35,649 bases of DNA from Paracoccaceae bacterium (GTDB taxonomy: Bacteria; Pseudomonadota; Alphaproteobacteria; Rhodobacterales; Rhodobacteraceae). Below the pieces are notes generated by a model, which worked only from the letters and a program-made list of their open reading frames with translations, did not search any database and had not been told where the DNA came from. The stretch spans positions 1 through 35,649 of the forward strand of contig PUKW01000095.1 in the NCBI GenBank assembly GCA_003550665.1, read 5' to 3'. Positions 34,103 to 35,594 of this stretch are shown piece by piece; positions within the stretch are counted from its first letter, which is position 1; every line of letters begins with the position of its first letter. The translations under genes and the position numbers were made by a program.

Positions 34103-34516
34103 ATGCCCAGCCCGTTTCACCTCGCCTTTCATGTCCGCGACCTCGACGAGGCCCGCGCCTTTTATGGTGCCACGCTGGGCTGCACGGAGGGGCGCAGCAC
34201 CGAAAGCTGGGTCGATTTCGATTTCTTCGGGCATCAGCTGAGCCTGCATATCGGCGCGCCCTTCGCGACCGAAAACACCGGCAAGGTCGGCGATCACATG
34301 GTCCCGATGCCGCATTTCGGCGTGGTGCTGCCGCTGCCCGAGTTCGAGGCGCTCGCCGCGCGGCTCAGCGCGACCACGACCGATTTCGTGATCCCGCCCA
34401 CCGTCCGCTTCGAGGGCGAACCCGGCGAGCAGTGGACGATGTTCTTTCGCGACCCGTCCGGCAATCCCATCGAGGTGAAGGGCTTTGCCGACATGGAGGG
34501 CGTGTTCGCGGCCTGA
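34103..34516 (+). CDS. VOC-superfamily (glyoxalase/dioxygenase fold) protein
   Basis: This is a 137-aa single vicinal-oxygen-chelate module pair. The start FHLAFHVRDLDEARAFYGATLGC is the classical first beta-alpha-beta unit with a metal-ligand His (His10). HQLSLHIG and the final FFRDPSGNPIEVKGF (Glu ligand in NPIEV) complete a plausible metal site. The ATG at 34103 is chosen because AGGAG lies nine bases upstream and the fold starts immediately; the track start at 33971 lies inside metY's 5' end. The reaction cannot be predicted: VOC proteins include glyoxalases, dioxygenases and resistance proteins. No neighbouring substrate pathway points to one. Confidence 0.88.
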   Translation: MPSPFHLAFHVRDLDEARAFYGATLGCTEGRSTESWVDFDFFGHQLSLHIGAPFATENTGKVGDHMVPMPHFGVVLPLPEFEALAARLSATTTDFVIPPTVRFEGEPGEQWTMFFRDPSGNPIEVKGFADMEGVFAA

Positions 34517-34602
34517 ATGGCGGCGTTCGGCCGATCGGCCGGATCGCGGGTTTGCGCGGGGCTCGCCGGGCGTTACGCTGCGCTGGTGAGCGGAGGTGCA
34601 GG

Positions 34603-35193
34603 ATGGCGCGAAAGTCGGGTATCGCAGGGAGCATGGCCGTGGTCGCGGCGCTGACGGTGCCGCCGCTCTGGGCCGCGGAAAGTATCTCGGGTCGGTTTCT
34701 CGTGGCGGAGCCGGATCTTGGCGGCAGCCCCTTCGGCGAGACCGTCATCCTGATGCTCGAGCATGGCGGCGCGGGCGCGGTCGGGGTGGTGGTCAATCGT
34801 CCTGTCGAGGAGCTTGCGCTGTCTGAGCTGGTCGATGAGCCGCCGGAGGCGATCGAGGATCTTCGGGTCGAGCTGTATTCCGGCGGTCCGGTCGAGGAAA
34901 ACAGCCTGATCGCGCTGCATGACGAAGGCTTCGAGGCCGAGGGCACCGAAGTCGTCGCTGACGGCATCGCGACGTCGCCCGTCGGCGAAGTGCTCGAGGC
35001 GATAGCGGATGAGCGCGGGCCGGACGAGGTGCGGCTTTATGCCGGATATGCCGGCTGGGCGCCCGGCCAGCTCGAGGGCGAGTTCGAGCGCGACTCCTGG
35101 CATGTGATCCCGGCCGATGCCGGGCTCGTCTTCTCGCGGGCGCCGGGGGCGGTCTGGGACGAGGCCACGCGCCGCCGGCAGACCGACCTGTGA
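34603..35193 (+). CDS. AlgH/YqgE-family (UPF0301) protein with signal peptide
   Basis: This is a 196-aa protein of the YqgE/AlgH family: SGRFLVAEPDLGGSPFGETVILMLEHGGAGAVGVVVNRP, LYSGGPVEENSLIALHD, VRLYAGYAGWAPGQLEGEF and SWHVIPADAGLVF are the diagnostic conserved segments. The family has no established biochemical function and is normally described as cytosolic, with the domain starting within a few residues of the N-terminus. Here about 25 residues precede it and look like a Sec signal peptide: basic MARKSG, hydrophobic AGSMAVVAALTVPPLW, and an A-x-A-like site before ESISG. A GGAGG ten bases upstream supports the ATG at 34603, which makes the export signal real rather than a start-site artefact. 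Confidence 0.9.
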   Translation: MARKSGIAGSMAVVAALTVPPLWAAESISGRFLVAEPDLGGSPFGETVILMLEHGGAGAVGVVVNRPVEELALSELVDEPPEAIEDLRVELYSGGPVEENSLIALHDEGFEAEGTEVVADGIATSPVGEVLEAIADERGPDEVRLYAGYAGWAPGQLEGEFERDSWHVIPADAGLVFSRAPGAVWDEATRRRQTDL

Positions 35194-35292: not shown

Positions 35293-35355
35293 ATGCCGGC
35301 AACCGGCACGACGCGGCGCGCGGCGATGCGCGATGCGCGCGGCCAGCGCGCATGA
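35293..35355 (+). CDS. 20-codon micro-ORF with strong ribosome-binding site, coupled to the next gene
   Basis: This ORF is too short for the track. An optimal GGAGG lies five bases before the ATG. The ORF encodes a very basic 20-residue peptide (begins MPATGTTRRAAM) and ends in TGA overlapping the next gene's ATG as ATGA. The next gene has no ribosome-binding site of its own, so reading the micro-ORF may be required to translate the membrane protein. It could be a leader peptide for translational coupling or a small conserved cassette protein. No homology is recognised. Confidence 0.45.
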   Translation: MPATGTTRRAAMRDARGQRA

Positions 35356-35594
35356 GCACCGCGAAGCCCAAGACCTACAAGCGCGAAAAGGCGGTGGTGC
35401 ACGCGGCTCTGTGGTGGGCGCTCACCGGGTTTGCAGCCTGGGCGATGGTGTTTGCGCCGAGCGCCAATCACGCCGCGCTTAAGGCGCTGGTGATCGGCTC
35501 GGGCATCTATGTCTTCGGCTTCGCCGCGGGCGCCTGGGGCATGGACTGGTGGGCCAAGCAAAAGCCCTTCGCAATCGGAAAGGACGCGACATGA
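35352..35594 (+). CDS. Small two-span membrane protein, holin-like
   Basis: This is an 80-aa hypothetical protein. A basic cytoplasmic start (MSTAKPKTYKREK) is followed by two hydrophobic segments: VVHAALWWALTGFAAWAMVFAP at about 14-36, and the ALKALVIGSGIYVFGFAAGAWGMDW region at about 42-66. A lysine-containing tail ends the protein. Size, two spans and charge pattern fit class II-type holins and similar phage lysis-cassette proteins. The ATGA overlap with the start of a probable peptidoglycan amidase downstream is the main support for a holin role. A host membrane protein of unknown function is the alternative. Confidence 0.75.
   Translation: MSTAKPKTYKREKAVVHAALWWALTGFAAWAMVFAPSANHAALKALVIGSGIYVFGFAAGAWGMDWWAKQKPFAIGKDAT

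Follow-up and report, generated by a model that had tools for sequence, protein, structure and literature searches.

A predicted Sec-exported YqgE/AlgH paralogue without cysteine and without the C-terminal GxA tail

Proteins of the YqgE/AlgH family (DUF179, UPF0301, COG1678) are very widespread, and the proposals made for them include cytosolic roles in redox sensing and regulation. We know of no activity for any of these proteins. In Pseudomonas aeruginosa, algH and gshB form a predicted operon; both genes are needed for resistance to hypochlorous acid, mutants are sensitive to it, and a role as a potential redox sensor has been predicted for AlgH (PMC7950407). The E. coli gene yqgE is among the multicopy suppressors of phage single-gene lysis proteins (PMC10229422), and plastid DUF179 proteins of plants have been found with the CLPC1 chaperone (PMC8889267). 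An exported bacterial YqgE/AlgH protein is not mentioned in the literature that we searched; automatic database annotations may hold individual signal predictions.

Here we describe a member of the family that is probably exported. The window, that is, the whole stretch of 35,649 nucleotides that was analysed, comes from a Paracoccaceae bacterium (GCA_003550665.1, contig PUKW01000095.1). It encodes a protein that we take, with good confidence, for a specialised YqgE/AlgH paralogue of the periplasm: a protein with the AlgH fold, exported by Sec, that has neither cysteine nor tail.

Start site, signal and domain of the window protein

The coding sequence lies at 34603–35193 on the forward strand and specifies 196 amino acids, none of which is a cysteine; its translation begins MARKSGIAGSMAVVAALTVPPLWAAESISGRFLVAEPDLGG. 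The sequence-only reading had recognised an AlgH/YqgE protein with an apparent Sec signal ahead of the domain, and had argued that the ribosome-binding site favours the long start. Both points hold. A Shine-Dalgarno sequence, GGAGG (34592–34596, +), stands 6 nt 5' of the ATG, and its pairing with the anti-Shine-Dalgarno sequence (−10.8 kcal/mol) tops that of all in-frame starts. The runners-up are M11 at 34633, with a dG of −7.4 and no spacer, and a GTG at 34639 (−7.4). The rule-based call and the start-site comparison together predict a Sec-type signal peptide of residues 1–24 (34603–34674, +), which reads MARKSGIAGSMAVVAALTVPPLWA and is followed by AES. It has a positively charged n-region (R3 and K4), a hydrophobic h-region (SMAVVAALTV, residues 10–19) and a small-x-small site for signal peptidase I, predicted at PPLWA↓AES (LWA↓AES) or at WAA↓ES.

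Taken alone, this signal is moderate evidence of export. Its hydrophobicity is moderate (mean KD 2.2 over 10 residues), and LWA departs from the textbook AXA site. The strict n-h-c rule is also passed by 28 of the window's 499 in-frame ATGs, and 11% of the shuffled versions of the same 26 residues pass it as well.

Behind the signal lies a complete DUF179/AlgH domain, residues 37–191 (34711–35175, +). It matches Pfam PF02622 over profile positions 1–155 of 157 (E 3.5e-38, 131.5 bits against a cut-off of 27). An AlphaFold2 model of the protein (pLDDT 91.5) has eight significant matches in the PDB, all of them solved family members; those to 2mui, 2ew0, 2aj2 and 2haf reach TM-scores of 0.71–0.76 over the query. 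The core of the family is retained: N65, GGP 94–96, the family-invariant GYAGW motif at 148–152 (35044–35058, +), Q156, L157, E160, W166 and F177 are kept in 100% of 14 exported and 33 canonical rows. Mostly specific to the canonical proteins, by comparison, are M36, C52, M60, Q79, R101, G102, N164, L167 and the C-terminal tail. The window protein does not reach the cut-offs of the NCBIfam equivalogs NF001266–NF001272 (at best 112 bits against 216 for NF001268, and 111 against 225 for NF001270) and is therefore a relative rather than an equivalog. Canonical YqgE ends in a GxA tail and has no signal peptide; the window protein ends RRRQTDL and carries the signal at residues 1–24.

A second, cytosolic yqgE paralogue, for which the sequence-only reading had proposed to look, is present in the genome. 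This ordinary YqgE is encoded on a different contig (C93:14279–14761), begins MDLSGKLLIAMPGMGD, ends in GRA and is signal-free. As judged by eye, the canonical yqgE of this genome is divergent from a gene resembling that of a DsbD N-terminal-domain protein (1459–2082 and 2043–2969 of locus L001, C93:12779–16261). Near another canonical yqgE, in L159, there is by eye a peroxiredoxin-like gene, with related genes in L162 and L165.

Two traits that accompany the signal

The window protein is not a lone oddity. Judged by sequence, it is a member of a small, widespread subfamily, which has two further traits beyond the signal: the GxA tail is lost, and the CxH cysteine is usually lost. We compared 135 different proteins, 26 of which pass a signal rule. 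The GxA tail is found in 1 of these 26 signal-bearing proteins and in 106 of the 109 others (Fisher p 8e-23), and the CxH cysteine in 2 of 26 and 98 of 109 (p 5e-16); both p-values are too small, since the test counts related sequences as independent ones, but many lineages show the pattern anew.

There are few exceptions. The lone signal-called protein with a GxA tail (L069) most likely has its true start downstream of the hydrophobic stretch, which would make it a false signal call. Three tail-less proteins have no called signal; one of them (L046) has an obvious signal that our script missed, and the other two come from other phyla. The CxH cysteine is kept in the predicted exported members L060 and L172. 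The former gene, seen also in L158 (1888–2517), may encode a Tat signal, MRGNEVTRRALLAGAG, in place of a plain Sec signal.

The comparative evidence for the signal is well above chance expectation, because relatives across many lineages keep a signal before the domain while the signal sequence drifts freely, and because the same rule fires on just 1 of the 107 canonical (GxA-tailed) proteins, that one probably falsely. The earlier proposal of an exported member in a normally cytosolic family thus gains support from relatives in many lineages.

The tail itself deserves a remark. It is GxA in all 107 tail-bearing canonical rows, reading AGHA in 52 and AGRA in 23. In a modelled canonical protein the last block is weakly ordered (mean pLDDT 68). 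The canonical C-terminal tail (e.g., L079:5980–6546) is nearly invariant though weakly ordered and resembles an unexplained short linear motif, for which weak order would be expected.

Distribution, descent and neighbouring genes

In the window's own family a second copy is rare. Among the genomes listed from a sample of 150 of the window's family, two complete copies occur in the window's genome only, and nearly all of the 150 showed no second copy. Within the genus, no second copy was seen in three of the five genomes. One of the four other genomes of the genus (G153, a second species) has both copies, and its second copy is 68% identical to that of the window. The two proteins agree at 120 of 169 positions in the domain (71%) and at 5 of 28 columns in the signal region, with a dN of 0.28, a dS of 0.82 and hence a dN/dS of about 0.34. 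Selection therefore maintains the domain, and maintains the signal as a feature only, not as a sequence.

The two loci also share the order metY-like gene, exported yqgE, 80-aa gene. The last of these, a membrane-protein-like gene downstream of yqgE (35352–35594, +), is 90% identical in G153 and has the same place there. Between the metY-like gene and the exported yqgE the window has a glyoxalase/VOC-family gene (34103–34516, +; Pfam PF00903). We considered it as a partner of the exported yqgE and rejected it, since it has no match in the sister genome G153.

Further afield, a copy with a signal-like N-terminus was found in 15 of 289 alphaproteobacterial genomes of an even sample, from at least 11 families and with two family matches each (G160, G182, G212, G232, G240, G267, G278, G280, G333, G352, G360, G376, G380, G381 and G428). 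This count is a lower bound, as we inspected mostly genomes with two matches; hence, the apparently constant pairing of an exported with a canonical copy holds for pre-selected genomes. A scan of named genomes found signal-bearing members in three Rokuibacteriota and in further Alphaproteobacteria. One of the latter is Defluviicoccus sp. SSA4, where a single complete chromosome has both kinds (L090 and L128). Signal-bearing members of greater divergence were seen in Bryobacterales (Acidobacteriota), in one deltaproteobacterial MAG and in one gammaproteobacterial MAG. A search of 349 genomes across the phylum at E 1e-28 gave four matches besides the window, all of them canonical, and no further exported copies. 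A plasmid origin was also considered and rejected: all 43 plasmid matches were below 60% identity, and none of the ten matches listed exceeded 35%.

In a maximum-likelihood tree of the 135 rows, a branch with support 100/99 parts all 107 tail-bearing canonical rows from all the signal-bearing ones. Two canonical proteins that lack the tail, from the phyla Nitrospirota and Actinomycetota, sit on long branches among the signal-bearing rows, so that the tree is compatible with a single origin of export as well as with multiple origins. It rejects a recent duplication of the genome's own yqgE as the source of the window copy. From its sequence, the window copy is a member of an old, divergent group that is found beside the cytosolic copy and has a patchy distribution.

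Among the loci compared, we found no conserved neighbour common to the whole exported group, and the neighbourhood therefore gives no common functional theme. Neighbours are shared within sub-lineages only and vary from one lineage to the next: L090 and L105 have DUF2125 upstream, and L088 and L154 have DUF1194 upstream together with a methyltransferase gene on the downstream side. Two Rokuibacteriota loci share a gene just 5' of the exported yqgE (L081:5463–5921 and L102:5505–5918), which encodes a CxxC-rich, zinc-ribbon-like protein; the L081 copy of it has no Pfam match.

Competing explanations and a possible role in the envelope

The window protein would be made as a precursor that starts at 34603 and is targeted to the Sec pathway via its N-terminal signal. 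Signal peptidase I would cut near residue 24, and the mature protein of about 170 residues is predicted by the model to adopt the AlgH-type domain. Since the core (N65, GGP, GYAGW, QL, E160, W166 and F177) is kept while the CxH cysteine and the GxA tail are gone, the protein probably relies on the core binding site that its cytosolic relatives use, and would act there on a ligand or protein of the envelope. It would then function without thiol chemistry and without the cytosolic role of the tail. A shared core binding function on an envelope target seems to us the most economical reading.

One could also argue that the hydrophobic segment stays uncleaved and serves as a signal anchor, which would tether the AlgH domain to the periplasmic face of the inner membrane. 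As a site for signal peptidase, LWA or WAA is indeed weaker than AXA, and in some relatives (L048 and L058) a long linker separates the domain from the hydrophobic segment. The h-regions are short, however, and most relatives have clear predicted cleavage sites, such as AFA↓ADN (L039), AVA↓DDA (L041), VFA↓QDE (L146) and AAA↓QGS (the orthologue in the genus), which makes an anchor unlikely in our view. We hold it to be more improbable still that the protein is cytosolic, either because translation starts downstream (e.g., at GTG 34639 or later) or because the N-terminal hydrophobic extension is a product of chance. There is a usable AGGGAG upstream of GTG 34639, and at such a composition the signal rule has a chance rate of 6–11%. 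Yet the best ribosome-binding site belongs to 34603, relatives keep signals of differing sequence, and signal and tail loss coincide in 25 of 26 proteins, the exception being the probable false call in L069.

That the contig is a contaminant or mis-binned, or that the gene is a decaying duplicate without function, we consider very improbable. In favour of it stand an assembly of 371 contigs with a contamination of 2.5% and the rarity of the copy within the family. But an independent genome of the genus has the same locus order, with a nucleotide identity of about 77–81%, the complete Defluviicoccus chromosome carries both kinds of copy, and the frame is intact, with the dN/dS given above.

In distant bacteria, too, relatives of the second copy have kept an export signal, and the YqgE/AlgH family therefore probably works outside the cytoplasm too. 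An exported subfamily that keeps the core without cysteine or tail would show which features the domain needs and which go with a cytosolic location. Should export be real, thiol chemistry and cytosolic partners are ruled out for the exported branch, and the periplasm is an accessible place in which to search for a ligand. More tentatively, YqgE/AlgH might be a two-compartment family, in which an old exported branch, lacking cysteine and tail, carries out in the periplasm the reaction or binding that is at the family's core; we regard this as possible rather than probable. If true, the GxA tail would be a separate cytosolic element (e.g., a contact for a protease or an adaptor), and a thiol would be dispensable for the core function.

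Among described systems, three invite comparison. With the YqgE/AlgH family, exemplified by P. aeruginosa AlgH (PDB 2mui), the window protein has in common a full-length PF02622 domain, the predicted fold and the invariant residues. Unlike canonical members, it has a signal peptide, lacks the GxA tail and any cysteine, and occurs as a paralogue in addition to a canonical copy. Arabidopsis DUF179-2 (AT3G19780) is, like the window protein, a DUF179 protein predicted to be secretory (TargetP 'S'; PMC8889267), but it is eukaryotic. A figure legend of the same paper names PDI/thioredoxin domains among those of the families it covers, possibly for DUF179-2, whereas the window protein is a cysteine-free single domain. 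AlgH, the putative redox sensor, belongs to the same family, but as the window protein is cysteine-free, it can have no thiol mechanism.
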